Source: Pseudomonas sp. 21 (GTDB taxonomy: Bacteria > Pseudomonadota > Gammaproteobacteria > Pseudomonadales > Pseudomonadaceae). Taken from it: a stretch of DNA of 64,000 bases. Below the pieces are notes generated by a model that saw only the letters and a list, made by a program, of their open reading frames with translations, was not told where the DNA came from and made no database searches. A program made the position numbers and the translations under genes. Position 1 is the stretch's first letter. The number at the start of each line of letters is the position of its first letter. Shown piece by piece: positions 10,676 to 25,305 of this stretch. The stretch is taken from positions 596,691 to 660,690 of the forward strand of contig NZ_JYOA01000001.1 in assembly GCF_000955805.1 (NCBI RefSeq), read 5' to 3'.

Positions 10676-10695
10676 GCTGTCGCAAACTGAGACGC
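10676..10695. promoter_or_regulatory. candidate activator site (UAS), copy d
   Basis: GCTGTCGCAAACTGAGACGC matches the GCTGT-N11-AC(A/G) pattern shared with 20.7, 23.0 and 25.3 kb (15 of 20 bases identical to the 25.3-kb copy). It is nested in a perfect 8-bp inverted repeat, CGTCTCAG (10668-10675) and CTGAGACG (10687-10694). Confidence 0.5.
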
Positions 10696-10795
10696 CCCGC
10701 GCCACGTGCGCTAGCGCAGGCCTTGCAGTAGAATTCGACGAAAATGCCTACATGGATGTAGACAAATTCCCACTCAACGCTTGCGAATCACATCC

Positions 10796-11725
10796 ATGAC
10801 TACTCGTCGTTCGATACTGAGCCTGCTGTTTGCCTGCGCCGCTGTTGTCTGTACATCGAACTCCTTCGCTGCCACGCCCAAGGCGGCCTCCCCCAAAGAA
10901 CTCGTGCTCGCCTCCGGCAGCGCGCTGGTGGTCGACCTGGAGAACGGCAAGACCCTCTACTCCAGCAATCCCAACCTGGTGGTGCCCATCGCCTCGGTGA
11001 CCAAGCTGATGACCGCGATGGTCACCCTGGACGCCAAGCTGCCGATGAACGAGCTGATCCCCGTGGACATCTCCGAGACCGCCGAGATGAAAGGCGTGTT
11101 CTCCCGCGTCCACCTGGGCAGCATGATCAGCCGCCAGAACATGCTGCTGCTGGCGCTGATGTCCTCGGAAAACCGCGCCGCCGCCAGCCTCGCCCACAAT
11201 TATCCGGGCGGTTCGAAGGCCTTCGTCGCGGCGATGAACGCCAAGGCGAAATCCCTCGGCATGACCAGCACCCATTACGTCGAACCCACCGGCCTGTCGA
11301 TCCACAACGTCTCCGACGCCAACGACCTGATCCGCCTGGCCAAGGCCGCCTACACCTACCCGCAGATCCGCCAGTTGAGCACCACGGCGACCAGCGACGC
11401 GCGCTTCAGCAAGCCCAGCTACTCGCTGAGCTTCTTCAATACCAACCCGCTGGTGCGCAACGGCAAGTGGGACATCCGCCTGACCAAGACCGGCTTCACC
11501 AACGACGCCGGCCACTGCCTGGTGATGGTCACCATGATGAACGGCCGCCCGGTCGCCCTGGCCCTGCTCGATGCCTTCGGCAAGCGCACCCACGTGGCCG
11601 ACGCCGGCCGCATCCGCCGCTGGGTGGAAACCGGCGTCGCTTCGCCGGTGCCTGCCGTCGCCTTGCAATACAAGGCACAGCGCAGCCAGGCCCGCGCCGC
11701 CAGCATGACCGCCACCGCCGAGTAA
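10796..11725 (+). CDS. pbpG: D-alanyl-D-alanine endopeptidase (PBP7 family)
   Basis: Periplasmic S11-family penicillin-binding protein of 309 residues that cleaves D-Ala-meso-DAP cross-links in peptidoglycan. A signal peptide covers residues 1 to about 25 (cleavage near SFA-AT). The catalytic SVTK has Ser67 and Lys70, followed by the SEN motif in MSSENRAA and the KTG box in [12 protein letters not shown] start at MTTRRS; a TTG five codons upstream is possible but neither has a strong ribosome site. It is a single gene closed by a 12-bp hairpin. It looks like a housekeeping cell-wall gene, unrelated to the flanking catabolic genes. Confidence 0.92.
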
Positions 11726-11731
11726 GCTCCC

Positions 11732-11759
11732 GCGCTGGCGGAGTCCGCTCCGCCAGCGC
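11732..11759 (+). terminator. hairpin after pbpG
   Basis: A perfect 12-bp stem (GCGCTGGCGGAG / CTCCGCCAGCGC) with loop TCCG begins 6 bp after the stop. There is no strong T-run, so it may act as a weak terminator or an mRNA end stabiliser. Confidence 0.55.
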
Positions 11760-11826
11760 CCTCTCCTTCCCCCGTTTTCCCTGTCGCTTCAGCCCTGCTG
11801 GATGGCGCTTCCGTCACTTATATGCT

Positions 11827-11855
11827 GGTCGTCATTCAATGCTAGTATGATGACC
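11827..11855. promoter_or_regulatory. imperfect inverted repeat before thioesterase gene
   Basis: GGTCGTCAT and ATGATGACC (8 of 9 paired) with an 11-bp spacer lie 32 bp upstream of the thioesterase start in an unusually AT-rich patch. A GATGACNG...AAT motif of similar look lies next to the palindrome at 15.46 kb. A TetR-type operator is possible. Confidence 0.35.
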
Positions 11856-11886
11856 GTAATATTTAATCGAAGTGCTGGAGCCCGCG

Positions 11887-12426
11887 ATGACCGAACTGAC
11901 ACTGACCCGTGAACAGAAGATTGCCGCCTGGGAAGCGGCGGCCGCGCAAATGCGCCAGCGCCTGGCCGAGCCGGGCGTGATCGCCCTGCAGGAACTGCGC
12001 GGCAAGACGCCCCAGGAATTCTTCGACGGCATCGGAGCAGGCGAATTGCCCGCCCCGCCGATCAACGCGCTGATCGGCTTCGTCCCGCTGGAATGGAGCC
12101 AGGGCCGCTTCGTCTTCCAGGGCACCCCGGACATGCGCCACTACAACCCGCTGGGCACTGTGCACGGCGGCTACGCGGCCACGCTGCTGGACTCGGCCAT
12201 GGGCTGCGCGGTGCACACCATGCTCGAACCGGGCCTGGGCTACACCACGACCGACCTGCGCATCAGCTACATCCGCGCACTGACCCGCGACACCGGACCG
12301 ATCCGCGCCGAGGGCACCATCGTGCATGTCGGCCGCTCCACCGCCCTGGCCGAAGGCCGTCTCTACGACGTGGACGGCAAGCTCTACGCCACCGGTTCCA
12401 CCACCTGCCTGATCCTCGGGCGCTGA
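11887..12426 (+). CDS. PaaI-type hotdog thioesterase
   Basis: Hotdog-fold protein of 179 residues. The core NPLGTVHGGYAATLLDSAMG is the HGG active-site helix region of PaaI/YigI-type acyl-CoA thioesterases. It would hydrolyse acyl- or aryl-CoA in the cytoplasm. The start MTELTLT has GGAG seven bases upstream. The thiolase gene follows after 21 bp, so the two are cotranscribed. Acyl chain preference is unknown. The promoter region carries an inverted repeat at 11827-11855. Confidence 0.87.
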   Translation: MTELTLTREQKIAAWEAAAAQMRQRLAEPGVIALQELRGKTPQEFFDGIGAGELPAPPINALIGFVPLEWSQGRFVFQGTPDMRHYNPLGTVHGGYAATLLDSAMGCAVHTMLEPGLGYTTTDLRISYIRALTRDTGPIRAEGTIVHVGRSTALAEGRLYDVDGKLYATGSTTCLILGR

Positions 12427-12447
12427 CAGCTGTTCAGGAGACCGACC

Positions 12448-13581
12448 ATGACTTCCGTAGTGATCGCGGGTTATGCCCGCTCGCCGTTCCACTTCGCTAA
12501 AAAGGGCGCGCTGATCGACGTACGCCCGGACGACCTTGCCGCGCAGACCGTCAAGGGTCTGGTCGCACGCAGTGGCCTGGACGCCCGGCTGATCGAGGAC
12601 CTGATCATGGGCTGCGCCTATCCCGAGGCCGAACAGGGCATGAACCTCGCGCGCATCACCGGCTTCCTCGCCGGGCTGCCGGAAACGGTGGCCGGCGCCA
12701 CGGTGAACCGTTTCTGCGGCTCGTCCATGACCTCCATCCACTTCGCCGCCGGGCAGATCCAGCTCGGCGCCGGCGATGCGTTCATCTGCGCTGGCGTGGA
12801 GTCCATGACCCGCGTGCCCATGGGCGGCTTCAACCTCTCGCCCAATCCACGCCTGCTGGCGGAGTTCCCGCAGGCCTACATGCCCATGGGGCAGACAGCG
12901 GAAATCGTCGCCGAGCGCTTCGGCATTTCCCGCGTCGACCAGGAAGCCATGGCGGTGGACTCCCATGCCAAGGCGGCCCGTGCCCGTGAACAAGGGCTGC
13001 TGGCGGCGGAAATCGTGCCCATCGACACGCCAAACGGAGTGGTCAACGAGGATGGCTGCATCCGCCCCGGCACCAACCTGGAGGCGCTGGCGCAGCTCAA
13101 GCCGGCGTTCGGCGGCAGCGTCACCGCCGGTACCGCCTCGCCCCTCACCGATGGCGCAGCGGCCGTGCTGGTGTGCAGCGAAGACTTCGCCCGTGCCCAC
13201 GGGCTGGACATCCTGGCGCGGGTGAAAGCCGTCGCCGTGGTTGGCTGCCCGCCGGAGATCATGGGCATGGGCCCGCTCTACGCCACCCGCAAGCTGCTCG
13301 ACCGCGCAGGCCTGCGCATGGCCGACATCGACCTGGTGGAAATCAACGAAGCCTTCTCCAGCCAGGCTCTGGCCTGCCTGCGCGGGCTGGAACTGGATAT
13401 CGACCGGGTCAACCTGCACGGCGGCGCCCTGGCCATCGGCCACCCGCTGGGCGCCACCGGCGCGCGCATCACCGGCAAGGCGGCGGCGCTGCTGAAGGAA
13501 ACCGGCGGACGTTATGCCATCGCGACCCAGTGCATCGGCGGCGGACAAGGCGTGGCGACGTTGCTGGAAGCTGTTCGCTGA
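12448..13581 (+). CDS. thiolase (acetyl-CoA C-acyltransferase)
   Basis: Thiolase of 377 residues with the nucleophile cysteine in [11 protein letters not shown], the histidine in [11 protein letters not shown] and the second cysteine in [12 protein letters not shown]. The GGGQG ending places it nearer the degradative FadA/PcaF-type clade than the thiolase at 1.3 kb. It cleaves 3-ketoacyl-CoA. CAGGAG precedes the ATG. It is paired with the thioesterase and followed by a REP pair and then a TetR regulator on the same strand that could control the pair. The full pathway is not encoded here. Confidence 0.92.
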
Positions 13582-13626
13582 GCTGAGAACCCGCTCCTGC
13601 AAGGAGAGATTGAGCGGTGCGAAAAC

Positions 13627-13692
13627 ATCGCGGACCGAGTCCGCTCCTACGCATATTCGAGGACCTGTGTGGGAGCGGACTCCGTCCGCGAT
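13627..13692. repeat. inverted REP pair, 'GCGGAC' flavour
   Basis: ATCGCGGACCGAGTCCGCTC and GGGAGCGGACTCCGTCCGCG face each other across a short spacer between the thiolase and TetR genes. Confidence 0.8.
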
Positions 13693-13793
13693 TGCCTTCA
13701 GCGCCTGCCCTATCTGCCCTGAATCACCTCCCCTCGCCCACCCTGCGTTAGAATGTCACCCAGCATTCCATGCACCGCAGGAGACACCCGGTC

Positions 13794-14363
13794 ATGCGTT
13801 ACTCCGAAGACCACAAGGCCCAGACCCGCGAACGCATCATCAACGAAGCGGCGCAGCGCTTCCGCAGCGAAGGCGTCGACGCCACCGGCCTGCAGACGCT
13901 GATGAAGGCGCTGGGCCTGACCCACGGCGGTTTCTACGCGCACTTCAAGTCCAAGGACGAACTGGTGGAGATCGCCCTGCAGCAGGCCGCCGAGCAACTG
14001 CGCCCGGTGGTGGACCAGCAGTTCGCCAAGGACGACCCGCTGCCCGGCTTCATCGAACAGTACCTGTCCACCGGCCACCGCAACGCGCCGGGCAAGGGCT
14101 GCCCGCTGCCGACCATCTCGGCGGAGCTGGGTGCTCGCGGCCATGCCAGTGCCACGACGGATGCCATCGTCCAGGCGCGCATCGACGCCATCGAGCAGGC
14201 GCTGCCCAGCGAGCATGCCGAGGACGAAAGCGTCGCCCTGCTCGCCACGCTGATCGGCGCGCTGGTGCTGTCGCGCAGCGTGGCGGACACGGAGTTGGCC
14301 GACCGCATCCTGGAGAGCACCCGGCGGCACCTCAAGCGGGAGATCGGCGCGGATACGGAGTGA
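13794..14363 (+). CDS. TetR/AcrR-family regulator
   Basis: Repressor-type protein of 189 residues with an N-terminal helix-turn-helix (GVDATGLQTLMKALGLTHGG, then FYAHFKSKDELV). The GGFYAHF form is typical of the NemR/AcrR-like C-terminal-domain-11 group. The start MRYSEDHKA has GGAG upstream. It is downstream of the thioesterase-thiolase pair and convergent with the SDR at 14.5-15.4 kb. The palindrome at 15459-15494 and the repeat at 11827-11855 are candidate binding sites, but this link is only positional. Confidence 0.88.
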   Translation: MRYSEDHKAQTRERIINEAAQRFRSEGVDATGLQTLMKALGLTHGGFYAHFKSKDELVEIALQQAAEQLRPVVDQQFAKDDPLPGFIEQYLSTGHRNAPGKGCPLPTISAELGARGHASATTDAIVQARIDAIEQALPSEHAEDESVALLATLIGALVLSRSVADTELADRILESTRRHLKREIGADTE

Positions 14364-14440
14364 GCCGGCAATTGCCGGAGTATCCGACAGCATGGGTATC
14401 GCTGCGCTCCCCCCATCCTGCGCAAGCGTCGGAAGCTCCC

Positions 14441-14467
14441 TGTAGGAGCGGGCCATGCCCGCGATCA
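14441..14467. repeat. single REP element
   Basis: TGTAGGAGCGGGCCATGCCC then GCGATCA, a single copy of the 'GCGGGCCATGCCCGCG' flavour. Confidence 0.6.
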
Positions 14468-14500
14468 CGCGCAGGGCGCGGTCCTGCAAAAGCCGCGCAT

Positions 14501-14527
14501 AAAAAAGCCCCGGCGCAAGGCCGGGGC
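14501..14527 (-). terminator. rho-independent terminator of SDR gene
   Basis: On the minus strand an 8-bp stem GCCCCGGC/GCCGGGGC with a 5-base loop is followed by six T. It lies 27 bp after the SDR stop and faces the TetR gene. Confidence 0.88.
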
Positions 14528-14553
14528 AAGCTTTTCGCCACTCAGTTACTCGA

Positions 14554-15360
14554 TCAAGCCACCGCCACGCCGTAACGCTGCGCCGGGGCGCTGCGCGAGA
14601 GATTCGGCGCCATCTTCAGGCGCGCGGCGGTGAAGGCTTCGAATTCGCCCGCATCCGGCAGCGCCGGCAGGGTCACCACTTCACCCTGGGCCAGGCCGGC
14701 CAGCGCGGCGTCGACCATGTGGTTCACGTCCATCAGCATTTCCGCCGGCAGTGCGGAGATATCGGTGCCGGCGCGGTCCCAGATTTCGGTGCGGGTGGCG
14801 CCCGGCAGCACGGCCTGGATGCGCAGGCCCAGCGGCGCCAGCTCCTGCTGCATGGACTGGGTCAGGTTGAGCACGAAGGCCTTGGTGGCGCTGTAGCTGC
14901 CGTTGAACAGTTCCGGCGCCAGTGCCAGCACCGAGGCCACGTTGATGATGGTGCCACGACCGCGACCGGCGAAGGCCTTGGCGGCGGCGCCGGCCAGGCG
15001 CGCGGTGGCGATGACGTTCAGTTCGATCATGCTTTCCAGGCGGTCCAGGTCGGTTTCCAGCAGGGTGCCGTTGATCGCCACGCCGGCGTTGTTCAGCAGC
15101 AGGCTGAGACTCGCATCCTCGGCCAGTCGGGCCTCGATGCGCGCGCGGTCTTCGCGGCGGGTCAGGTCGGCCTTCAGCACGTCCACCGAGACGCCGTATT
15201 CCTCGCCGAGGCGCGCAGCCAGGGCTTCCAGGCGCTGCTGGTCGCGGGCTACCAGCAGCAGGTCGTAGCCCTGTGCGGCGAGGCGCTGCGCATAGGTGGC
15301 GCCAATGCCGGAGGAAGCACCGGTGATCAGTGCACGGCCCAGTTGGGATTTGGCATTCAT
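14554..15360 (-). CDS. SDR-family oxidoreductase
   Basis: Classical short-chain dehydrogenase of 268 residues with TGASSGIG near the N-terminus, the NNAG motif (LLLNNAGVA) and the active-site YSATK. It is NAD(P)-dependent; substrate unknown. The ATG at MNAKSQ has GGAGAC upstream. The promoter is striking: a perfect 36-bp palindrome (15459-15494) covers both the -35 and -10 hexamers, which implies tight repression by a dimeric regulator. The gene is closed by a strong terminator. Proteins of this subfamily (DltE/YqjQ-like) are often called SDR family with no known substrate. Confidence 0.88.
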   Translation of the reverse strand: MNAKSQLGRALITGASSGIGATYAQRLAAQGYDLLLVARDQQRLEALAARLGEEYGVSVDVLKADLTRREDRARIEARLAEDASLSLLLNNAGVAINGTLLETDLDRLESMIELNVIATARLAGAAAKAFAGRGRGTIINVASVLALAPELFNGSYSATKAFVLNLTQSMQQELAPLGLRIQAVLPGATRTEIWDRAGTDISALPAEMLMDVNHMVDAALAGLAQGEVVTLPALPDAGEFEAFTAARLKMAPNLSRSAPAQRYGVAVA

Positions 15361-15698
15361 GGTTCTGTCTCCAGGGAGGCGGTTGCCCCGCATGCAAGGT
15401 AGGTAGGGCCGGTTGGCCGTCTGGAATGTCCGGCCCGCTTAAGATTATGGCCGTCATCTGACAGTTAATATTATGCTCATAATATTAACTGTCAAGGTCC
15501 ATTCCCTGAGGGTGACCAGTGGTAACCGGAGTGGCGACAGAGCGCACCGCACGGGCCCTGGAAGCCATTGGGCAGTTTAGGTTGCCCATTCCAGAGCGCT
15601 CGCGAGAGGCTCGCTGCGTCTCCACACAAGAACAATCCCGGAGCGTCACCTGCACCCTGCTGCCTGTCTACGCACCGGAGCGATCCGGAGGAGGACAC
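15361..15698. other. intergenic region, SDR / Cys-rich small protein
   Basis: About 340 bp. The left half holds the SDR leader and the 36-bp palindrome. In the right half I see no gene up to the GGAGGAGG ribosome site at 15687-15694. Confidence 0.6.
15459..15494. promoter_or_regulatory. perfect 36-bp palindrome over SDR promoter
   Basis: Two 17-base arms (TGACAGTTAATATTATG and its exact reverse complement) surround CT. On the minus strand TTGACA at 15495-15490, 16 bp, then TAATAT gives a near-consensus sigma-70 promoter lying inside the palindrome. Binding here would block RNA polymerase. The SDR start is 98 bp downstream. Confidence 0.85.
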
Positions 15699-15836
15699 AT
15701 GCGATTGCGCTGCTTTTTCCTGGGATGTGCTTGGGATGAAGGGAATCTGACCGAAGTCGGCCGCGTGCCGATGCTGTGCCAGCGCTGTGCGCGCTGTGGT
15801 GCGCAGCGGTACCTCAGTCCCGAGCCGGAAATCTGA
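15699..15836 (+). CDS. Cys-rich small protein, 45 residues
   Basis: A short gene with a near-ideal ribosome site (GGAGGAGG, five bases before ATG). The protein starts MRLRCFFLGCAWDEG and ends CQRCARCGAQRYLSPEPEI. Cysteines at 5, 10, 27, 30 and 33 (C-x4-C ... C-x2-C-x2-C) suggest a zinc-ribbon-like or metal-binding fold. From memory Pseudomonas genomes carry a conserved 'PSPA7_2676 family Cys-rich small protein' of this kind; its function is unknown. An in-frame upstream extension exists but has no ribosome site. It shares a bidirectional terminator with qhpB. Confidence 0.75.
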   Translation: MRLRCFFLGCAWDEGNLTEVGRVPMLCQRCARCGAQRYLSPEPEI

Positions 15837-15851
15837 AATCGGCCCAAAGAA

Positions 15852-15883
15852 AATGCCCGGAGCACTTTCGTGCTCCGGGCATT
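15852..15883. terminator. bidirectional terminator
   Basis: A perfect 14-bp stem (AATGCCCGGAGCAC / GTGCTCCGGGCATT) with loop TTTC. It is T-rich on the minus-strand exit (TTTTCTTT), so it ends the qhp operon, and it also closes the Cys-rich small gene. Confidence 0.85.
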
Positions 15884-15916
15884 GGGTGTTGTCCGGCAAC
15901 GCTCAGTTGGCAGGGC

Positions 15917-17050
15917 TCAGTTGGCCACGAACGCCTGGCTGGTGGTGATCGCCATGTCGCCGCCGGGCAGCTTGAGGTCGCCGATGCGCTCCAGGCTGTC
16001 GGCATCGAAGATCGCCACGTCGTTCAGGGTGCCGGTCAGGTACAGCTTGTTGCCGGCCTTGTTGGTCGACAGGCAGTAGTAGGAGTGGTCCAGGTTCGCC
16101 GCCTTGACCAGCTTCTGCTCCTTGATGTCGTACTTGGCCAGGCGGTTCAGCACGCCGTAGATGATGTTGCGGTCCTTGGCCGAGCGGATGCCGCTGAAGT
16201 ACACCTCGGTGACCGGGCCGAAGTCGACGGTCTCGGTCTTGCCGGTGGCCAGGTCGATGTTGAAGAAGCCGTAGAGGAAGTCGGCCGTGGCCAGGTCCTG
16301 CTTGGCGTCCTTGAACTTCGCCGTGGTGTAGAGCAGCGAGAAGTCACGCGGGTAGGTCTGCTGGTTCCACACGTAGAGAACATCTGGCGGCGCGTAGTTG
16401 GGGCGCTTCCAGTTGCGGCTGGGGATGATCACGTCGAACTTGCCGGTCTTCACGTCCACCTTGTAGATGTCCGGGCCCGCCACGTAGAGGGTACCGTCGT
16501 CGCCGCTCTGCATGATGGTCAGCTGGCGCGGCGCCGGGAAGGTGCGCACCGGCTTGGCGTCCATGCCGTCCGCGACGGAATACACCTGAAGGCGCGGCTG
16601 CTGCACCTCGTAGTGCTCGGCGAGGATCAGCGTCGGGTTGGCGATGGCGTAGATCTCCTTGCCGTCATGGCTGACGGTCATGGAGAACATCGCCCGCGCA
16701 TTCTCGCCCGGCCTCTGCGCGATGGTGGCGTGGAACACCGGTTTGCAGTCATCGAGCTGGATGCCGTAGATGTCCGCGTAGTGGTTGCTGAGGATGTAGA
16801 CGGTCTTGCGGTCCGGCGACAGCTGGGTCATGCCCGGGCCGTAGGCGCCGGGGATGGTGCAGGTCTTGAACAGCTTGTCGGTCTGCATGTCGATGACGTG
16901 CAGGTTGTTCGGGTAGTTGGTGCTGATCAGGTATTCGTGGCCACTCTCCAGCGCCTTGCCGGTGTCGGCGCCGGTATCGGCGGCGACGGCTTGCAGCGCG
17001 CAGGCCAGCGAGAGGCCGCCGAGCGCGGCGGCGAATGCTTTTCTGGACAT
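15917..17050 (-). CDS. qhpB: quinohemoprotein amine dehydrogenase beta subunit
   Basis: 377 residues. A signal peptide (MSRKAFAAALGGLSLACALQ, cleaved near AVA-AD) leads into a seven-bladed beta-propeller with YVTN-like strand repeats (YLISTNYPNNLHVIDMQTDK first). In QHNDH the beta subunit holds the small gamma subunit next to the di-haem alpha subunit in the periplasm. I place the start at MSRK, with GAGG ten bases upstream; an ATG ten codons earlier (17080) has a poorer site. It is the last gene of qhpADCB and ends at a strong terminator. The identity is secured by the three genes upstream. Confidence 0.93.
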   Translation of the reverse strand: MSRKAFAAALGGLSLACALQAVAADTGADTGKALESGHEYLISTNYPNNLHVIDMQTDKLFKTCTIPGAYGPGMTQLSPDRKTVYILSNHYADIYGIQLDDCKPVFHATIAQRPGENARAMFSMTVSHDGKEIYAIANPTLILAEHYEVQQPRLQVYSVADGMDAKPVRTFPAPRQLTIMQSGDDGTLYVAGPDIYKVDVKTGKFDVIIPSRNWKRPNYAPPDVLYVWNQQTYPRDFSLLYTTAKFKDAKQDLATADFLYGFFNIDLATGKTETVDFGPVTEVYFSGIRSAKDRNIIYGVLNRLAKYDIKEQKLVKAANLDHSYYCLSTNKAGNKLYLTGTLNDVAIFDADSLERIGDLKLPGGDMAITTSQAFVAN

Positions 17051-17109: not shown

Positions 17110-17433
17110 TCATTTGTCGTCCGGGAATACGGTGCCGAGGTTGCGCCAGTTCTCGGCCGAGGCCTGCGCATCCTTGTTCCAGTCGGGGTAGGTGCTCATC
17201 ATGTCCGGCACCTGGGCCGGCCACCAGCAAGGGTCGGAGCAGCCGTAGAGGTCCGCTTCCATCGGCTGGCAGAGCGAGGACACGCCGCCGAACACGTCGA
17301 CTTCCCAGCCCGGGTCGGTGGTGGCCGCGCAGCCGGCCACGGAGTTCATCGCCACCACGTCCTCGATGCGATCCTCGGCGGCGGCCTGTTCGAGCTTCTG
17401 TGCTTTGGTGTTGATCGCTTTCAGATGTTTCAT
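17110..17433 (-). CDS. qhpC: quinohemoprotein amine dehydrogenase gamma subunit (CTQ peptide)
   Basis: 107 residues: a 28-residue leader and a 79-residue mature catalytic peptide. Counting from residue 29, cysteines fall at 7, 27, 37 and 41, acidic partners at Glu16, Asp33 and Asp49, and the cofactor tryptophan at 43. These are exactly the residues known to form three Cys-acid thioethers and the Cys37-Trp43 cysteine tryptophylquinone in the Pseudomonas putida and Paracoccus enzymes. Core motif: [16 protein letters not shown]. The leader lacks a Sec signal, as expected, because QhpE removes it and QhpF is thought to export the peptide. The ATG follows the qhpD stop by one base, so translation is probably coupled. 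Confidence 0.97.
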
Positions 17434-17434
17434 G

Positions 17435-18865
17435 TCAGTGCGCCTTCCGCGGAGTGATGTGGCGGTCGATGAAGCTGGGGTTGGAGGCCATGATCCGGCT
17501 GTAGACCTCGATGCCGAAGTCGACCCAGTCCCTCATCAGTTCGCAGTAGTGGTAGGTGGGGTGCGCCGGGTCGCCGTAACGCGCGTAGCTCTCGTGGTAG
17601 CAGCCGCCGGAGCAGAGGTTGCGGATGTGGCAGCTGGCGCAGCCGGTGTCGGTGCGGTCCAGGCGCTGCGACAGGAAGTCGTTCAGCTCGGCCTGCTTCA
17701 CCCCTTCATGGACGTTGCCGAAGGTCGGCAGCGAGGAACCGGTGAAGCGGTGGCACAGGTTCAGCTCGCCCTTGTGGTCCACCGCCAGCATCTTCAGGCC
17801 GGCGCCACACGGCAGGGCTTTCTTCTGCCCTTCGTGGATGTCGGTGATCAGCTGGTGCAGGTTGGAGAAGCCGATGTTGCGCCCTTCCAGCGCCTCGTCC
17901 AGGTAGCGGCGGCCGAGGGCCTTCATGCCGGCGAAGACCGCCTTCAGCTCGTCCCCGGTGAGGTTGTAGCTGCTGATATCGCCCGAGGTGACGGGGGCGA
18001 AACCGACTTCGGCGAAGCCCATCTCGTTGAACAGGTGGTTCCAGATGGTCTCGACATCGGTGACGCCAGTGGTGAGCGTCACCCGCGCGCCAACCGGCCG
18101 CGCGGTGTAGCGCGACAGCAGCATGTCGGCCTTGCGCCGCACCACGTCATAGGTGCCCTGCCCGCCCACGGTGATACGGTTGCGGTCGTGCACCGTCTTC
18201 GGCCCGTCGATGCTGATGGACAGCCCGAAGCGATGGGCGTTGAGCCAGTCGACGATTTCCTCGGTGAGCAGCGTGGCGTTGGTGGTCATGACGAAGTCCA
18301 CCGTCTTGCCCAGCTCGCCGAAACGGCGCTCGCAGTAGGCAACCATGTGCTCGATCAGCGGGCGGTTGGACAGCGGCTCGCCGCCGAAGAACACCACGGT
18401 GTAGCGCTGCTCTTCGGGGGACTCCTGGATCAGCATTTCCACCGAGGCCTCGGCGGTTTCCGCGCCCATCTTCTTGCCGGCGGAGGGCTTGTCCAGGTCT
18501 TCCTTGTAGCAGTAGGTGCAGCTCAGGTTGCAACCGGTGTTGACGTTCAGCACCACGGTGTTGAGCGCGGTGCGGTCAACCTTCTTGATGCCGATTTCAG
18601 GGGTCAGCGGCGAGCCATCGCTGACCAGCTCCAGCGCGATCAGCTCGCGCAGGGTCTCGTCGATTTCCTCGGCGCCGAAGCGCCCGGCCAGGCGTTGGGT
18701 CAGCTCGTCCGGCGAGCAGGCATGCCCGCGCAGCGCGTCGATGATCCCGCCGGTCAACTCGTCGCTGGCGAACAGCGAGGAGCTGGGGATATGGAACAAC
18801 AGGCGGTCGGCGTCGACCTGCACTTCGTGCAGGTTGCGTTCGACCAGATTCAAGATGGCGCCCAT
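17435..18865 (-). CDS. qhpD: radical SAM maturase QhpD
   Basis: 476 residues. The radical SAM cluster motif is C112-x3-C116-x2-C119 ([13 protein letters not shown]), and the C-terminal SPASM region has further cysteines ([28 protein letters not shown]). QhpD builds the intra-peptide Cys-to-Asp/Glu thioether bridges in QhpC in the cytoplasm. The start [11 protein letters not shown] has GGGAGG upstream. It lies between qhpA and qhpC, the same A-D-C-B order as in Paracoccus. The N-terminal 100 residues resemble a peptide-recognition domain that would bind the QhpC leader. Confidence 0.95.
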
Positions 18866-18940
18866 GGCGACCTCCCGGAACTTGCTTGCCAATCCCCGTC
18901 CGAAGACGGGGTTCAGGGGTTCAGTTCATCCGATCCCGCA

Positions 18941-20512
18941 TCACGGGATCGGCGGGTTGTTCCAGCGCTGCACGGTGACGATCATGTGCCCTTCGCCCTT
19001 GTGCGACTGGCCGGCGTCGTCCACCGCGGCAATCACCTTCAGGTTGCCGGCGTTGTTGGTCATCATCTTGCGCGCCGGGTTCGGGCCAGCATCACCCGGC
19101 GTGAAGATGCCGCTGTCGGCGTCCATCACCCCGGCATACTTCACGTCCTCGTCTTCCTTGGCGCGGTCGTCGAAGGGCTCCACCGACCACTGCGCGGGGA
19201 ATACGCCGATGCGGAACGGCTTGCCGTCGGCGCCCTTGCCCCAGGCCTCGGCGTCGAAGCTGCCCTGGACCTTGGGCGTCGAGCCGCCGTTGCCGCCGAT
19301 GCGGGAGATGGAGAACTCCGGCACCACCTTGACTTCGGCGATGTCCTTGTACACCGCGAGGCTGCCGCCCTTGGCGGTGCCCACGCTGACATCGCGCTCG
19401 CCGGCAGCGGCCGAATCGCTGGCCTTGACCTTGACGGTCACGCGCTCGGGCGTCTCGGAAACCACCGACACTACCTCCACGCCCTTGCCGAACGATGGCT
19501 TGCCCTTCAGGCCAGTGCCGACCACGCTGACTTCGGTCTCCGCACCTGCCTTGATGTAGGCCGGCTGCACGCCCAGCACATGGCTGGTGCCATCCTTCGC
19601 CGCGACGAAGTCCAGGCCGCGCTCATCGTGCGCCTTGTCGAACATGCGGCCCTGCATCTGGCCGTTGAGGGCAGCGAATACCTGACGCATGGTCACGTCA
19701 CCGACCTTCACCGCGCCGCGCCATTCGTAGCCGTTGTAGAGCACCGCACTGCCTTCGCCGTCGAATGGCGAGCCATCGGCATACTTGCCGGTCACGCTGA
19801 CCTTGAAGGCGTCGTCGCCATCCTTCGCCACCTTCATGCTGCCGGCGACATCACCCTTGCCCGGCATGTGCCCGGCGAAGCTCCACTCGCCGGTCAGCGT
19901 CTCGGCCTTGGGCCGATTCTTCTGCCAGTCGCTCCAGGCCTTGTCTTCCAGCGGGAAGCGCTTGGCGAGCTCGGGGACCATCTCTTTCTTCGCCAGGTCG
20001 AACCAGTCGCGGTCGCGGGCCAGTGCCTGGTATTCCAGCGACGGCCAGCGTCCGAGGTGGAAGTTCACCAGCTTCTCCCACTCCGCCGCCGGGCGGCGTT
20101 GCAGGGCGATGCGCGCGGCCGAGTGGCAACGGGCGCACATCTGCTCGAAGTTGGTATCGAATTTCTCGACCGTGTTCAGCCGGCGCTCGAGGGCGTAACG
20201 CACGCCTTCGGTCTCGCTGGGTGCCAGGCCCTGCTTGTCGGCGAGGAACTTGACCACCGCACGACGCTCCTCGTCGGTGATCTTCAGGCCGTACATCACC
20301 TGCATGCGGCCGATGCTCATCAGCCAGCCTTCGGGGGTCTTGCGCTGGTGGCTGATACGGCTGAGGGAGTTGTTGCCTTCGGGCGTGTGGCACGCCTGGC
20401 ACTTGGCGTTGATGATCGCCTGGCCCTCGGGTGCGGCCTGGGCCGTCTGGTGCAGCGCAAGGGCCAGTGCGGCCAGGGTTCCGGCACCCAGATAGTGCCG
20501 AAGTCGTGTCAT
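18941..20512 (-). CDS. qhpA: quinohemoprotein amine dehydrogenase alpha subunit (di-haem)
   Basis: 523 residues with a Sec signal peptide ending near AQA-APEG, leaving about 497 residues, the size of the known subunit. Two c-type haem sites are present: C38QAC41H42 and C126ARC129H130. The C-terminal half contains immunoglobulin-like and beta-sandwich domains, as in the QHNDH alpha chain. It takes electrons from CTQ after oxidative deamination of a primary amine in the periplasm and passes them to azurin or a cytochrome. It heads qhpADCB. A good sigma-54 promoter (20595-20610) and a UAS-like site (20705-20724) lie upstream. The start at MTRLRHY has only a weak GAGG. Confidence 0.95.
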   Translation of the reverse strand: MTRLRHYLGAGTLAALALALHQTAQAAPEGQAIINAKCQACHTPEGNNSLSRISHQRKTPEGWLMSIGRMQVMYGLKITDEERRAVVKFLADKQGLAPSETEGVRYALERRLNTVEKFDTNFEQMCARCHSAARIALQRRPAAEWEKLVNFHLGRWPSLEYQALARDRDWFDLAKKEMVPELAKRFPLEDKAWSDWQKNRPKAETLTGEWSFAGHMPGKGDVAGSMKVAKDGDDAFKVSVTGKYADGSPFDGEGSAVLYNGYEWRGAVKVGDVTMRQVFAALNGQMQGRMFDKAHDERGLDFVAAKDGTSHVLGVQPAYIKAGAETEVSVVGTGLKGKPSFGKGVEVVSVVSETPERVTVKVKASDSAAAGERDVSVGTAKGGSLAVYKDIAEVKVVPEFSISRIGGNGGSTPKVQGSFDAEAWGKGADGKPFRIGVFPAQWSVEPFDDRAKEDEDVKYAGVMDADSGIFTPGDAGPNPARKMMTNNAGNLKVIAAVDDAGQSHKGEGHMIVTVQRWNNPPIP

Positions 20513-20594
20513 CTTCAAGGTCAGGCCTCCTCGGTATTCTTGTTGGTTATTCGCGCCCACCGATGGGCTAAGAGCGTGCTCTTGAAAGCGGTTT

Positions 20595-20610
20595 TGCAGG
20601 TTGTGTGCCA
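20595..20610 (-). promoter_or_regulatory. sigma-54 (-24/-12) promoter of qhp operon
   Basis: On the minus strand TGGCACACAACCTGCA. It has the invariant GG and GC separated by 10 bp and a perfect -24 hexamer. Predicted transcription start is near 20584, about 70 bp before qhpA. Confidence 0.8.
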
Positions 20611-20704
20611 CTACTGCGAAAACCCCGCCGAATCAGGCTTTCGGCGGAATTCCCAGGCACGCCCGGCAGAGGACACCGGGCTTGCGACGTAACATTTCGC
20701 GATT

Positions 20705-20724
20705 GCTGTCTAACTCTGAGACAG
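20705..20724. promoter_or_regulatory. candidate activator site (UAS), copy a
   Basis: GCTGTCTAACTCTGAGACAG, of TGT-N11-ACA form, centred about 106 bp upstream of the -24 element of the qhp promoter. It overlaps the stop codon (TAG, 20712-20710) of the CcmF-like gene. 16 of 20 bases match copy b. Confidence 0.65.
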
Positions 20725-22893
20725 GGCCCGTGAGACACCCTGCGAAGCAGTATGGTCCGGCTTGCGCAAAGCGCCGCCCGCCGGGAGCAACAAGGCGCCG
20801 AACAGCATGGTCAGCAGGCCGATCCAGACCAGCGAGAGGAACGGGAAGCGGCGCACCACCACGACGCTTTCGATATCGTCACCCGGCTGCTTGAGCAACC
20901 GCGCCGAGGCCGGCACCCAGATCTGCAGATCACCACTCCAGCCGCGGACGATGAACGGATGCAACACGTAGCCGCGATCCGAGGCGAAGCGCGCGTAGTG
21001 GTAGTCGAGGATTTCGCAGAGCTGGCGCACCGGCCCCTGGTAGGCCGGCGGGTTGCCCCGGCTGTCCTGGAACAGCGCGTGGCCGGCCAATGTGCGCTCG
21101 CCGTCGCGCAACTCGACCTTGGCCACCGCGTGGTAACCGGAGAAATCCGGGCGGCTGGCATCCGGCGAGACGCGCATCTGCATGCCGCCGATCACCGCGT
21201 GCCACTGCTCGAAGGACGTGCCCGGCGGGATACTGATCTGCTGGTAGCTGTTCAATGCCGTGGCGGCCAGCCCGCCCACCAGCGCGATCACCGCGCCGCC
21301 ATGCACCAGCGCCAGCCCGCCGCTGTAGCGCAGGTTGCCCACCCGCCGGCTGCGCCACAGGCTCTGCACGCCCCACAGCAGGCAACTGAGCATCAGGAAG
21401 GCACCGCCCAGCAGTGCCGCGTCCAGCCACGGCAGCACCCGCACGATATTCTGCGAAAGCATGCCATCGCCGTTGTAGCCGCCGCTCAGCCAACCGCCGC
21501 GCCAACCGGTCCAGAGCATCACGGCAGCCATCAGCAGCGTCGCCAGCAGCGCCATCCGGGGGCGCCCGCACCGGCGCAGGAAGCTGTAGCCGCCCATCAG
21601 GCCAAGGGCCGCCAGCAGCGGCACGACCCAGTGCGCGAGGCCGTAGCCGTTGACGTCCCACTGGTCGAAGGCGCGGCGCAGGCTGTCCATCTCGGTGGTG
21701 GTGGCCCAGGCGGTCAGGGTCTCGAAGAAGGGCTTCAGCTCGCTCGGCCGCTCCATTCCCAGCCATTCGTAGAGGTGCGCCTGGAGCAGCGCGCCGAGGG
21801 CCAGCAGACCGGTGCCGGCGAACAGGTAGATGGCGACGTCCAGCGTCCAGTCCGACGCCCCACGCCGCCGCCCTGCCCGCTTGCGGGATCGCCACCCGGC
21901 AAGCAGGTGGAAGGCCGCGAGGGCCAGCAGGATCGCCGCCAACGCCAGGTGGCTGAGCCAGGAGGTGGTGCCGATGTAGCGGTGCGAGCTGGCCAGCACC
22001 GTGCTGCGGGTCACCGCCATGGCGCCGCAGGCCATGGCCGCCGCCAGCAGGCTGAGCACCGGCAGCAGCCGTGCGTAGGGGCCGTCCGCGCGCCAGCGGC
22101 GGGCGCCGTGCAGCACCGCGCCGAGCAACGCCCAGATGATGAAGGCCGAGGTCTGCACCGGGTCCCAGTGCCAGAGTTGGCCATAGGTGAAGTCCTCCAT
22201 GGCCCAGGCCATACCCACGCCAATGCCCGCACTGAGGATCAGCCAGGCGCGGCGGCTGTAGCGCGGCATCACCCAGGCATAGGCGTGGCCACCCCGCCCC
22301 AGCGCCTCCAGCGCGGCGCCGGAGGGCGCCAACACCCAGGCGTAGGCGCAGAGGATCAGCGGCGCATGCAGGGACATCCAGAAGGTCTGCAGGTGGGCGT
22401 TCATGCCCTGGCTCGGCTGCGCCGCCAGCCAGCCCGCCGGCGTCGCACCGAACGGCCCCAGCCACGCGGCAGTGGCGACGTACCAGGCGGCGATCAGGGC
22501 CATGCCGCGCCCGGCCCAGCCGGGCAGCGCGGCGCTCTTCAGGGCGATCGCCATGCAGAAGGTTGCCAGCAGCAGTACCGTGCCTTCATCGCCACCCCAG
22601 AGGTTGGAAAACTTCAGGTAGGCCGGCAGCGCCGCACTGCTGTAGAGCCAGGCGTAGCGCAACTGGAAATGATCGGCCACCAGGTGCAGGCCAAGCGCAA
22701 GGCAGGCGCCGCACAGCGCACCGAGGGCAACCGGCCAAGCCAGCCCTCGCCGCTCCTGGCGAAGGGCTCCAAGGGCAATCAGCGCCGCCAGGGCCCAGAG
22801 CAACCCGTTGCCCACGTCGGGCAGTAACCACAACAACAGGCAGGTCAGCGCGGCCGCCAGCGGCCCCGCGATCCACGGCAACGACAGGTGCAT
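20710..22893 (-). CDS. CcmF/CcsA-family cytochrome c assembly protein
   Basis: Polytopic membrane protein of 727 residues with about 14 hydrophobic segments. The haem-handling loop is YGQLWHWDPVQTSAFIIW, a variant of the WWD motif (WGxWWxWDPVE) of CcmF/NrfE, and a large periplasmic domain lies near the C-terminus (EQWHAVIGGMQMRVSPD onward). CcmF-type proteins attach haem to CxxCH. Pseudomonas already has a full Ccm system, so this extra copy next to di-haem qhpA suggests a dedicated lyase or assembly factor for QhpA. The start is uncertain: ATG at 22893 is poorly placed, and a TTG three codons upstream has AAGGAGG at ideal spacing. Confidence 0.85.
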   Translation of the reverse strand: MHLSLPWIAGPLAAALTCLLLWLLPDVGNGLLWALAALIALGALRQERRGLAWPVALGALCGACLALGLHLVADHFQLRYAWLYSSAALPAYLKFSNLWGGDEGTVLLLATFCMAIALKSAALPGWAGRGMALIAAWYVATAAWLGPFGATPAGWLAAQPSQGMNAHLQTFWMSLHAPLILCAYAWVLAPSGAALEALGRGGHAYAWVMPRYSRRAWLILSAGIGVGMAWAMEDFTYGQLWHWDPVQTSAFIIWALLGAVLHGARRWRADGPYARLLPVLSLLAAAMACGAMAVTRSTVLASSHRYIGTTSWLSHLALAAILLALAAFHLLAGWRSRKRAGRRRGASDWTLDVAIYLFAGTGLLALGALLQAHLYEWLGMERPSELKPFFETLTAWATTTEMDSLRRAFDQWDVNGYGLAHWVVPLLAALGLMGGYSFLRRCGRPRMALLATLLMAAVMLWTGWRGGWLSGGYNGDGMLSQNIVRVLPWLDAALLGGAFLMLSCLLWGVQSLWRSRRVGNLRYSGGLALVHGGAVIALVGGLAATALNSYQQISIPPGTSFEQWHAVIGGMQMRVSPDASRPDFSGYHAVAKVELRDGERTLAGHALFQDSRGNPPAYQGPVRQLCEILDYHYARFASDRGYVLHPFIVRGWSGDLQIWVPASARLLKQPGDDIESVVVVRRFPFLSLVWIGLLTMLFGALLLPAGGALRKPDHTASQGVSRALSQS

Positions 22894-22964
22894 CCTCTTC
22901 AAGCCAGGCCTCCTTGTGCAGCGCCGACGCGGCGCTGGGCGAAACCCGCAGCGCTTCACGTTGC

Positions 22965-22980
22965 GTGCCAGCCGGAAAAG
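22965..22980 (-). promoter_or_regulatory. degenerate sigma-54-like promoter of CcmF-like gene
   Basis: On the minus strand TGGCACGCAACGTGAA has a perfect -24, but the -12 reads GTGA rather than TTGC. It lies 62 bp downstream of UAS-like copy b and 72 bp before the CcmF-like start. It resembles 10501-10516. Confidence 0.35.
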
Positions 22981-23041
22981 TCCTTGCGAAACAGCGAGCT
23001 GCGCGTGTTCCGAACGCCCGTCCGCGTGACAGATCGCGACA

Positions 23042-23061
23042 GCTGTAGCAGTCTGAGACAG
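23042..23061. promoter_or_regulatory. candidate activator site (UAS), copy b
   Basis: GCTGTAGCAGTCTGAGACAG, TGT-N11-ACA. It lies between the divergent CcmF-like gene and the MHS transporter. More GACAG half-sites precede it (GTGACAGATCGCGACAG, 23027-23043). Confidence 0.6.
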
Positions 23062-23383
23062 CCCTGACCGTTATAGACGATGGTCTAATTGCACGTCTTT
23101 CCAGCAAGGAAGTGCCCGTCATCGAGGCGCCAGCCAGACGCCTCGCGTCATCCGAGCTGTCCAGAACAGGTGCCAATCCGCGCCAGCCGGGGCTTTGCCG
23201 GCGGTCGCGGGTGGCCAGACGCGTGAGAACGATTATGCTTTCAGATGACCTTGCGGCCAGCCGCAGGGCCGCCTGTATTCACGCATCGCGCAATCCGTAC
23301 GACCTGTCATCAGCCCTGGGCTCGAGTGCGGTAACGGAAATTGAGGGACTCCGGCCCAAAACAACAACAAGACGGAGACGAAC

Positions 23384-25057
23384 ATGGCGCAGACATACAG
23401 CCCGGCCGCGGGCAACGCTCCTCACAGCGGAATCACCAAGGAGGAGCGCAAGGTCATCTTTGCCTCCTCCCTGGGTACGGTGTTCGAGTGGTACGACTTC
23501 TACCTCTACGGCTCCCTGGCGGCGATCATCGCCAAGCACTTCTTCGCCGGGGTCAATGAAACCACCGCCTTCATCTTCGCCCTGCTGGCCTTCGCCGCCG
23601 GCTTCGCGGTGCGGCCCTTCGGCGCCATCGTGTTCGGCCGCCTGGGCGACATGATCGGACGCAAGCACACCTTCCTCATCACCATCATCATCATGGGCAT
23701 CTCCACCGCCGTGGTCGGCCTGCTGCCCGCCTACGCCACCATCGGCGTGGCCGCGCCGATCATCCTGATCACCCTGCGCCTGCTGCAGGGCCTGGCGCTG
23801 GGCGGCGAGTATGGCGGCGCGGCGACCTACGTCGCGGAGCACGCGCCCAAGGGCAAGCGCGGCTTCTTCACCTCGTGGATCCAGACCACCGCGACGCTGG
23901 GCCTGTTCCTCTCGCTGCTGGTGATCATGGCCTGCCGCACCGTGCTCGGCACCGAGGCGTTCGAAGCCTGGGGCTGGCGGATTCCGTTCCTGCTGTCGAT
24001 CCTGCTGCTGATCATCTCGGTGTATATCCGCCTGCAACTCTCCGAGTCGCCGGTGTTCCTGAAGATGAAGGAAGAAGGCAAGGCCTCCAAGGCGCCGCTG
24101 ACCGAGTCCTTCGGCCGCTGGGAGAACCTCAAGGTGGTGATCATGTCGCTGCTCGGCGGCACCGCCGGGCAAGCCGTGGTCTGGTACACCGGGCAGTTCT
24201 ACGCGCTGTTCTTCCTGCTGCAGACGCTGAAGATCGACGCGCAGACCGCCAACCTGCTGATCGCAGGTTCCCTGTTGCTGGGCACGCCGTTCTTCGTGTT
24301 CTTCGGCAGCCTGTCCGACCGCATCGGCCGCAAGAAGATCATCATGGCCGGCTGCATCCTCGCCGCACTGACCTACTTCCCGATCTTCCACGGCCTGACC
24401 CAGTTCGGTAACCCGGACGTGTTCGCCGCCCAGGAGAAGAACCCGGTCACCGTGGTGGCCGACCCTAACGCCTGCTCCTTCCAGTTCGACCCGGTGGGCA
24501 AGGCGAAATTCGTCAGCTCCTGCGACTTGGCCAAGAGCCTGCTGGCCAAGCGCGCCATCCCCTACGAGAACCTCAAGGCCGAGACCGGCGCGCTCGCCCA
24601 GGTGCACGTCGGCGACAAGGTCATCGCCAGCTTCGAAGGAGCCGGCATGCCGGCGGCGGAGTTCAAGGTGCAGTCGGAAGTCTTCACCGCGCAGCTCGCC
24701 GCCTCGCTCAAGGAGGCCGGCTACCCCGAGAAGGCCGACCCGGCGAAGATCAACCACCTGATGATGCTGGTGCTGCTGACCATCCTGGTGATCTACGTGA
24801 CCATGGTCTACGGGCCGATTGCGGCGTGGCTGGTGGAGCTGTTCCCGACGCGCATCCGCTACACCTCCATGTCGCTGCCCTACCACATCGGCAACGGCTG
24901 GTTCGGCGGCTTCCTGCCCACCGTCGCCTTCGCCATGGTGGCCGCCACCGGGGACATCTACTACGGCCTCTGGTACCCCATCGTCATCGCGGTGATGACG
25001 GCCATCCTGGGCATCTTCTTCCTGCCCGAAACCAAGGACCGGGACATCACCGACTGA
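23384..25057 (+). CDS. MHS-family MFS transporter
   Basis: 557-residue inner-membrane symporter of the metabolite:H+ symporter group. The signature GRLGDMIGRKHTF follows the third segment, with a second copy, GSLSDRIGRKKI, in the second half. It has 12 predicted segments. Unusually, a hydrophilic insert of about 110 residues (roughly 345-455) with two cysteines (NACSFQF, SSCDLAK) sits in the C-terminal half, making the protein longer than the usual 430-450. The start has CGGAGACG upstream. It lies between qhp genes and an aldehyde dehydrogenase, so it may import the amine's acid product or a related carboxylate. The real substrate is unknown. Confidence 0.9.
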   Translation: MAQTYSPAAGNAPHSGITKEERKVIFASSLGTVFEWYDFYLYGSLAAIIAKHFFAGVNETTAFIFALLAFAAGFAVRPFGAIVFGRLGDMIGRKHTFLITIIIMGISTAVVGLLPAYATIGVAAPIILITLRLLQGLALGGEYGGAATYVAEHAPKGKRGFFTSWIQTTATLGLFLSLLVIMACRTVLGTEAFEAWGWRIPFLLSILLLIISVYIRLQLSESPVFLKMKEEGKASKAPLTESFGRWENLKVVIMSLLGGTAGQAVVWYTGQFYALFFLLQTLKIDAQTANLLIAGSLLLGTPFFVFFGSLSDRIGRKKIIMAGCILAALTYFPIFHGLTQFGNPDVFAAQEKNPVTVVADPNACSFQFDPVGKAKFVSSCDLAKSLLAKRAIPYENLKAETGALAQVHVGDKVIASFEGAGMPAAEFKVQSEVFTAQLAASLKEAGYPEKADPAKINHLMMLVLLTILVIYVTMVYGPIAAWLVELFPTRIRYTSMSLPYHIGNGWFGGFLPTVAFAMVAATGDIYYGLWYPIVIAVMTAILGIFFLPETKDRDITD

Positions 25058-25079
25058 CGGGCTGTGCCTCACCGAAGAG

Positions 25080-25103
25080 CCCCTCTCCCTGAAGGGAGAG
25101 GGG
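25080..25103. terminator. hairpin after MHS transporter
   Basis: A 10-bp perfect stem CCCCTCTCCC/GGGAGAGGGG with loop TGAA, 23 bp after the stop. There is no T-run. The same stem occurs between liuB and liuC, so it is a dispersed element that may also end or stabilise transcripts. Confidence 0.5.
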
Positions 25104-25188
25104 CCTGGTTCGGCGCGCCCTGGCATTTCATCTTCTGCCGAACACATCGCAACAGGATTGACTCAGCAGCCTTCGCCGCACGGATATG

Positions 25189-25235
25189 CCCTCTCCCTTC
25201 GGAGCGGGGCGCGCAGCCAGGGCTGGGGAGAGGGA
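25189..25235. repeat. dispersed repeat, copy 2
   Basis: CCCTCTCCCTTCGG, then AGCGGGGCGCGCAGCCAGGG, then CTGGGGAGAGGGA. Partner of 5243-5289. Confidence 0.65.
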
Positions 25236-25285
25236 ACTCCCAGCTCCGATCTCCCCTTCCGCCAGCAGGCCAAACCGTCTCAATT

Positions 25286-25305
25286 GCTGTCGCAATGTGC
25301 GACAG
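25286..25305. promoter_or_regulatory. candidate activator site (UAS), copy c
   Basis: GCTGTCGCAATGTGCGACAG, TGT-N11-ACA with a clean inner inverted repeat TGTCGCA/TGCGACA. It is centred about 85 bp upstream of the -24 box of the aldehyde dehydrogenase promoter. Confidence 0.7.

Follow-up and report, generated by a model that had tools for sequence, protein, structure and literature searches.

The window, a stretch of 64,000 nucleotides from Pseudomonas sp. 21, carries genes for a quinohemoprotein amine dehydrogenase (qhp) and its maturation. The minus strand encodes the alpha subunit QhpA (18941..20512; TIGR03908, 712 bits), the radical SAM maturase QhpD (17435..18892; TIGR03906, 779 bits), a putative gamma subunit QhpC (17110..17433) and the beta subunit QhpB (15917..16960, start approximate; TIGR03907, 492 bits). 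The qhpC candidate is a 107-amino acid Cys-rich ORF that we presume to be the gamma subunit from its position and the Cys/Trp-rich character of that subunit. Also encoded on the minus strand are a CcmF/NrfE-like protein (20710..22893; PF01578, with NrfE-type matches far under cut-off) and an acyl-CoA ligase of the PRK12583 family (8612..10291; 951 bits, cut-off 832). An MHS-type transporter (23384..25057) and a StyD-like aldehyde dehydrogenase (ALDH; 25456..26949; NF045735, 693 bits, under the cut-off of 850) lie on the plus strand. Farther along, a sigma-54 enhancer-binding protein is encoded at 55183..57081 on the minus strand, its gene end overlapping by 4 bases a qhpF-type ABC transporter gene (53456..55186, minus), which has generic ABC exporter matches and is named by position. 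The protease gene qhpE (52795..53508, minus; NF049966, 296 bits, cut-off 165) and the flavin monooxygenase gene qhpG (51482..52924, minus, start probably internal; NF049967, 578 bits, cut-off 240) complete this group.

An earlier note on this DNA had described four 20-bp sites of the form GCTGT-N11-AC(A/G) at 10676, 20705, 23042 and 25286. All four are present at these coordinates, and comparison by hand returned the same pairwise identity of 14–16 of 20 positions. The element proper is better described as a symmetric 19-mer, the palindrome CTGTC(G/T)CA-N3-TG(A/C)GACAG with its N3 center, and the count of four was incomplete: two additional minus-strand copies, at 10584–10602 and 23024–23042, also recur in relatives. 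The window alone fails to establish the motif, because match counts are at chance level, both for the pattern built from the four sites (31 matches at ≤2 mismatches versus 31.3 expected) and for the half-site pair (27 at ≤2 mismatches versus 34.1 expected). When the sequence CTGTCNCANNNTGNGACAG was used to scan the organism's own genome, three of the window sites ranked top with 0, 1 and 1 mismatches. Sequence alone does not single out the site at 10676, since its 2 mismatches tie it with six other places in the genome and the counts at ≤3 mismatches are close to those of the control (150 matches versus 141 for the reversed pattern). Proof of the motif comes from relatives, as it is conservation and not the window scan that decides.

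Across 25 congeneric genomes, CTGTCKCANNNTGMGACAG gave 47 forward matches at ≤1 mismatch, 45 of them in the qhp locus and two outside it (G007:C25 and G013:C16); its reversed control gave a single match. Three congeners gave no match: G012 has no qhpA; G017 and G021 do have it, with weaker sites. A lack of conservation in qhp-bearing relatives had been named in the earlier note as grounds for refutation; when this was put to the test on 62 qhpA loci, the sites proved conserved. These loci belong to the window's family, and the count covers all but 38 of the main-type qhpA genomes; L063, a second, 66% qhpA copy in G014 without a site, was left out. For all conservation counts given here related genomes are non-independent samples. 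First-order Markov controls yielded a mean of ≤0.1 loci with both site and promoter. Permuted half-sites at ≤4 mismatches matched a mean of 0.7 and 0.9 loci (maximum 7 and 10), compared to an observed 23 of 24 and 37 of 38. A blind palindrome search of 20 non-redundant regions from outside the genus returned CTGTCTCAGACTGAGACAG, the same palindrome, at 443 bits; its rivals at widths of 18 and 20 scored 320 and 316 bits, and four shuffles scored 211–225 bits.

The conserved sites precede sigma-54-type -24/-12 elements. At qhpA, the site (20706..20724, minus) occurs in 61 of 62 loci and lies 114 nt upstream of the promoter TGGCACACAACCTGCA (20595..20610, minus); site and -24/-12 element are found together in 60 of the 62. 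The best site at L058 has 5 mismatches, L100 has sites and no promoter match, and at L099, L115 and L116 the site lies 176–184 nt from the -24 element. For the ALDH gene, both site and promoter are present in all 61 loci; the window's site (25287..25305, plus) is a perfect palindromic match, with the promoter TGGCACAGCCGTTGCG (25380..25395, plus) 93 nt downstream. The CcmF-like gene has a site at 23043..23061 (minus; 21 of 22 loci) and, 91 nt downstream, the sigma-54-like promoter TGGCACGCAACGTGAA (22955..22970, minus), the pair being present in 21 of 22 loci. An adjoining second site (23024..23042, minus), 19 bp from the first, is found with ≤4 mismatches in 14 of the 22 loci and has 5 mismatches in the window. 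The CcmF-like gene of L059 has no site at the threshold, and the homolog in L114 has none. The site at 23042 had been assigned to the CcmF-like gene and the MHS transporter as a pair; it does face the CcmF-like promoter, whereas the MHS gene has no clear sigma-54 promoter and its regulon membership is uncertain. A candidate MHS promoter, TGGGCTCGAGTGCGGTA, is kept in many congeners and was rejected for its poor consensus fit. L050 has no CcmF-like gene, and its sole site with ≤4 mismatches within 520 bp of the MHS gene is that of qhpA.

Upstream of the acyl-CoA ligase gene, the single site of the earlier note stands as the distal member of two. The distal site (10677..10695, minus; 3 mismatches to the palindrome) is found with ≤4 mismatches in 10 of 11 ligase loci from within the window's genus, and the proximal site (10584..10602, minus; 4 mismatches) is an identical 19-mer or one base off in all 11. 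In 11 of 11 loci, 86 nt separate the proximal site, counted from its 5' end, from the T of TGGC within the sigma-54-like promoter TGGCACGCTTTGTGAG (10501..10516, minus), so that among these close relatives both the site and the combination of site and promoter are present in 11 of 11. The -12 element is GA instead of GC, as it is in the CcmF-like promoter; detecting the ligase promoter needs a lax pattern, and a filter that requires either GC at this position or high-scoring matches misses it. Ligase loci in other arrangements carry a site with ≤4 mismatches in 1 of 20 cases (L064). Of 20 stretches extracted for the ligase, 10 contained the gene (L121–L130), and it was not found within the other 10. 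Between ligase promoter and start lies a LiuR-type box (10416..10438), found at all 11 ligase loci, and an identical 23-bp string precedes a MerR gene at 57299.

Site-to-promoter distances of up to 130 nt cluster at 72–73, 83–86, 91–96, 103–104 and 111–116 nt and thus fall at helical-turn steps. With a period of 10.5 bp the phasing reached R 0.57, a value attained by none of 5000 random sets; the set comprises 25 gene-distance pairs of ≤130 nt, among which neighboring pairs are not independent, and excludes the three long qhpA spacings. This arrangement, in which the sites precede conserved -24/-12 elements by distances that fall into clusters, supports the earlier proposal that they suit a Fis-type sigma-54 activator.

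The candidate encoded at 55183..57081 contains an AAA+ sigma-54 interaction domain (PF00158, 221 bits) and a Fis-type HTH (PF02954, residues 589–629). GAFTG is present in 105 of 105 ortholog records, some of which represent the same genome twice, and LGISRATLYRKLKQ in the HTH is invariant across them; the HTH residue distinguishing the orthologs, A in place of N, is shared by 14% of 36 other activators. In the N-terminus, where an AcoR/DhaR-like sensor would have GAF and PAS domains, Pfam detected PAS_4 alone (whole-protein E 1.7e-6), with no single stretch over the limit. A predicted model (pTM 0.49), with its elements read by eye, suggests a GAF-like fold at 72–214 and a PAS-like fold at 219–305, and among the 50 Foldseek matches listed all were sigma-54 activators. 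The earlier note had linked the sites to this protein as a candidate regulator, and its gene does co-occur with qhpA across the family: among 398 genomes, 100 contain both, 3 qhpA alone, 2 the activator alone and 293 neither. Within the set labeled g11 the activator is present in 18 of 18 qhpA genomes, and in 8 of these both genes lie on one contig, 50 kb–1.2 Mb apart. The sole qhpA of the three qhpA-only genomes is of a distant, 42–43% type, for which 0 of 6 loci examined had the site; in G294 and G380, which carry this type, a different, 37–40% activator adjoins qhpA. A broken activator in the activator-only genomes G225 and G230 was ruled out, as the ORF is open over its full length of 636 amino acids and the TAA in G225 is read as the normal end. 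The stretches around distant activators (L200–L224) contained no qhpA, B, D, E or G at the cut-off used. In two genomes, a sister activator and the ALDH are kept with half-sites in another arrangement, and the place of qhp is taken by a PQQ alcohol dehydrogenase bearing a cytochrome c domain. The activator-qhpFEG operon has no site within the window, so that the maturation genes are at most candidate members of the regulon. Inspection of the region upstream of the activator by eye revealed no obvious NtrC site; in P. stutzeri, an ntrC mutant reportedly showed better rather than worse amine use (PMC8443478).

Other regulators might account for the same sites. Paralogs such as the 43% protein at G000 C3:38028 exist in the genomes, and TGT/ACA inverted repeats are common to many Fis-type activators (PMC6615313), so that another such protein could bind while the window's activator is linked by chance. 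We consider this quite improbable: the 55–57 kb ortholog tracks qhpA, HTH sequences are mostly different, and G012, which has a 45% activator of the paralog kind, lacks both qhpA and a site at ≤1 mismatch. An AraC-type regulator acting at the sites, either the product of 7544–8560 or a QhpR-like protein encoded elsewhere, appears highly improbable, even though the window's AraC gene adjoins the ligase and an n-butylamine-inducible regulator is stated for the Paracoccus qhp operon (PMC7876137). The window cluster encodes no QhpR-family protein, its AraC protein scoring 133 bits on the QhpR model against a cut-off of 250. Since sigma-54 promoters require an AAA+ activator, the AraC alternative is weakened further. 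We also rejected the AraC gene as a partner because its distribution does not track qhpA: matches above 430 bits occur in 59 genomes, 13 of which lack qhpA, and are missing from 57 of 103 qhpA genomes. QhpR matches over the cut-off were found in just 3 of 9 genomes searched, and those in the window's own genome sit on other contigs (C3 and C41). That the palindromes are chance matches, terminators or mobile repeats rather than protein sites would fit the chance-level window counts, but is scarcely credible given that position, symmetry and promoter spacing are fixed across diverged genomes and controls are far lower.

We conclude, with a probability of roughly 0.87, that the sites are upstream activating sequences for a single sigma-54 enhancer-binding protein, that encoded at 55183..57081. 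Activator dimers would use their Fis-type HTH to bind the 19-bp palindrome, oligomerize and loop the DNA, and ATP hydrolysis would then open RNA polymerase-sigma-54 at -24/-12 promoters mostly 72–116 nt downstream, measured from the site's 5' end to -24. The units switched on would be qhpA(DCB), the CcmF-like gene and the ALDH gene, joined in the window's genus by the acyl-CoA ligase gene, placing the pathway from amine via aldehyde and acid to acyl-CoA under common control. The putative GAF- and PAS-like domains at the N-terminus probably sense the signal; we infer an amine-derived small molecule as inducer, an aldehyde or acid being more likely than the amine. If the ligase is indeed under both the activator and the LiuR-type box, amine use might feed directly into leucine/isovalerate catabolism, linking amine oxidation with acyl-CoA and leucine catabolism. 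For the quinohemoprotein amine dehydrogenase of the Pseudomonas family, the proposal amounts to a precise, testable model of regulation, distinct from control by an AraC-like QhpR; its 19-bp site and defined spacing are open to base-by-base mutation. The promoters could also serve as an inducible sigma-54 set with which to sense amines. More tentatively, the activator and ALDH, together with the ligase, might constitute a reusable control and downstream module that senses the shared aldehyde or acid and onto which periplasmic quinohemoprotein dehydrogenases of different types, amine or alcohol, are plugged.

Loci L107 and L108, with a PQQ dehydrogenase gene divergent from an aldehyde dehydrogenase gene, resemble qbdBA-aldA of P. 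putida HK5, whose enzyme is an alcohol and not an amine dehydrogenase. The pea cluster (PeaABCDEFGHR) of Pseudomonas putida U, reportedly described by Arias in 2008, combines an amine dehydrogenase with a phenylacetaldehyde-type dehydrogenase, and PeaR may be the same activator as that encoded at 55183–57081. NCBIfam model NF049968 names an AraC-like QhpR as the regulator for quinohemoprotein amine dehydrogenase, and we take this QhpR to be the Paracoccus qhp regulator. The Paracoccus operon encodes the same enzyme with the maturases QhpD, E, F and G (PMC7876137); its n-butylamine-inducible regulator is AraC-like by model name, in contrast to the sigma-54 activator at palindromes proposed here. 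The titles and abstract openings listed in the literature search contained no report of sigma-54 control of qhp. Fis-type regulons such as those of FhlA, NifA and the Clostridiales groups (PMC6615313) share with the proposed one an AAA+ protein with GAFTGA and a Fis-type HTH, an inverted TGT/ACA upstream site and a -24/-12 promoter downstream. The proposed regulon differs from them in its own 19-bp motif and its quinohemoprotein amine dehydrogenase targets.

The earlier note, drawn from sequence alone, had proposed four 20-mers, at window positions 10676, 20705, 23042 and 25286, as marks of a regulon, and direct look-up in the window placed each of them there. A window scan at ≤2 mismatches returned matches at chance level, and in the own-genome ranking three of the four came out on top with 10676 level with six other places; the case was therefore built on relatives. 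Read on both strands, the site is a 19-bp palindrome of two half-sites around an N3 centre. Blind Gibbs sampling, seeking palindromes in the 450 bp upstream of qhpA (quinohemoprotein amine dehydrogenase) at 20 non-redundant loci from genera other than the window's, recovered CTGTCTCAGACTGAGACAG, in which GT and the inner CA/TG are conserved at 93–100%. A width of 19 (443 bits) was strongly favored over 18 (320) and 20 (316), and four mononucleotide shuffles of the input gave 211–225 bits versus the real 443.

Of the 398 family genomes, 103 contain qhpA: the main type in 100, and a distant type alone in 3. We fetched 63 main-type loci, window included, and used 62, one per genome; those of 38 genomes lay outside this sample. 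The locus left out (L063), an additional qhpA copy (66% identical) carried by genome G014, has neither the site nor an adjoining aldehyde dehydrogenase (ALDH) of this type. Genome G142 (C1:4769671-4772132) has, after its qhpA gene, a second, incomplete match to the 3' third of qhpA. At ≤4 mismatches, the site occurs at 23/24 congeneric and 37/38 other qhpA loci, while 60 permuted half-site controls averaged 0.7 and 0.9 loci (maxima 7 and 10); the conservation that the earlier note had proposed to seek upstream of qhp genes in relatives is thus found.

A sigma-54 −24/−12 element lies downstream of the site at qhpA (60/62), ALDH (61/61), the CcmF-like gene (21/22) and the acyl-CoA ligase (11/11 loci), and in first-order Markov versions of these regions the two occurred together in a mean of ≤0.1 loci (maximum 1). 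Distances of up to 130 nt from the site 5' end to the −24 element cluster at 72–73, 83–86, 91–96, 103–104 and 111–116 nt, i.e., in steps of about one helical turn, with single values at 60 and 121 nt; at three loci (L099, L115 and L116) the qhpA site is more distant, at 176–184 nt. Adjoining sites paired 19–20 bp apart occur at 14/22 CcmF-like genes and five qhpA promoters. Outside the genus, ALDH is divergent from qhpA in all 37 loci holding both, within 700 bp in 25. Site 23042 had been assigned to both the CcmF-like gene and the MHS transporter: the former assignment stands, with the conserved TGGCACGCAACGTGAA on that side, while the latter is not evident, as MHS offers only a poor promoter candidate and, at locus L050, where the CcmF-like gene is missing, the one site near MHS (≤4 mismatches, within 520 bp) is that of qhpA. 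The CcmF/NrfE-like gene (window 20710-22893), located between qhpA and ALDH in 21 of the 24 genus loci used and in locus L083, may encode a heme lyase dedicated to QhpA.

The proposed activator at 55183-57081 (−) combines a sigma-54 interaction domain with a Fis HTH, and its gene overlaps a qhpF-type gene followed by qhpE and qhpG, in agreement with the earlier note, which placed a Fis-type sigma-54 activator beside qhpFEG. At 99%, its nearest named records come from Pseudomonas nitroreducens and P. nicosulfuronedens. A structure prediction (mean pLDDT 82.6, pTM 0.49) retrieved sigma-54 activators throughout the best 50 Foldseek rows listed, and on our reading the order of its elements suggests GAF- and PAS-like N-terminal sensors. 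Within the HTH, LGISRATLYRKLKQ is invariant across 105 orthologue records, some genomes being counted twice; among 36 other activators the prevailing form is LGISRNTLYRKLN, and 14% of these have A where the two sequences differ. A sigma-54-like TGGCGCGGGAATTGCC (57211-57226 (−)), shared by most but not all congeners, lies ~145 nt upstream of the activator gene, with no palindrome around it.

Activator orthologues (E ≤ 1e-150) occur in 102/398 genomes, 100 of which also contain qhpA (Fisher p 7e-88, phylogeny ignored). Within genome group g11, all 18 qhpA genomes have the activator, and in 8 of these the two genes share a contig at a separation of 50 kb to 1.2 Mb. Genome G012 lacks activator and qhpA alike and has no site at ≤1 mismatch. 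The three genomes with qhpA and no activator (G159, G294 and G380) all carry the distant type (42–43%), for which the site was found in 0/6 loci examined. At the distant-type loci of G294 and G380 (L110 and L111), a different sigma-54 activator (37–40%) adjoins qhpA, so this type may be under separate sigma-54 control. An AraC-type controller fits the distribution less closely: 57/103 qhpA genomes lack an AraC match as strong as 430 bits, and 13 of the 59 genomes exceeding that score lack qhpA. The window's AraC gene (7544-8560), considered as a QhpR-like controller, scores under the QhpR cut-off. On another contig of the same genome (C3:35123-39920), an AraC gene above this cut-off adjoins a 43% paralogue of the activator.

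Identical copies of a 23-bp LiuR-type box precede the ligase (10416-10438) and a MerR gene (57299-57321), which suggests dual control of the ligase. The box is present at 11/11 ligase loci. The MerR gene adjoins the activator, lies within 1.5 kb of it in 42/104 activator records, and precedes liu-like genes; the name LiuR rests on its MerR domains and these neighbors. LiuR is listed among MerR regulators of branched-chain amino acid use (PMC5343134).

Only two of the 398 genomes, G225 and G230, have the activator without qhpA. Both keep a full-length activator as well as the ALDH, and a PQQ alcohol dehydrogenase with a cytochrome c domain takes the place of qhp between ligase and ALDH, divergent from ALDH and with the sister activator alongside (L107 4047-8936, L108 11218-16110); in G225 a PF13557 protein adjoins it. 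Their ALDH genes retain the sigma-54 element, with no N3 palindrome at ≤5 mismatches; two TGTCTCA half-sites and one GAGACA persist in a different arrangement. In the activator tree (29 sequences, betaproteobacterial root) the pair is sister to all others, and an ALDH tree with L100 as its root has it branching above L099/L115; given these placements, the set has the look of an ancient sibling module, not of a recent exchange. Any signal shared by the two modules would, we infer, be the aldehyde or acid. Activator and ALDH, with the ligase, might form a reusable module serving different quinohemoprotein dehydrogenases (amine or alcohol type), a tentative reading to which we assign a probability of about 0.33, lowered from 0.35 because the G230 ligase looks incomplete: its alignment covers only about the first 107 residues in the stretch examined, versus a 567-aa ORF in G225.

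The n-butylamine-inducible qhp regulator is presumably AraC-like, judging from an NCBIfam model name. The titles and abstract openings covered, which did not extend to papers under subscription such as that on the pea cluster, mention neither the site nor sigma-54 control of qhp, so the regulator may already be named PeaR. An n-butylamine-inducible regulator is described as controlling the qhp genes (PMC7876137), and for strains GP72 and Pf-5 such genes are named peaA, peaC, peaD and peaE (PMC3644233). Many Fis-type activators recognize TGT/ACA inverted repeats 10–12 bp apart, according to a further source (PMC6615313), and the present regulon would be a new example of control by such an activator.
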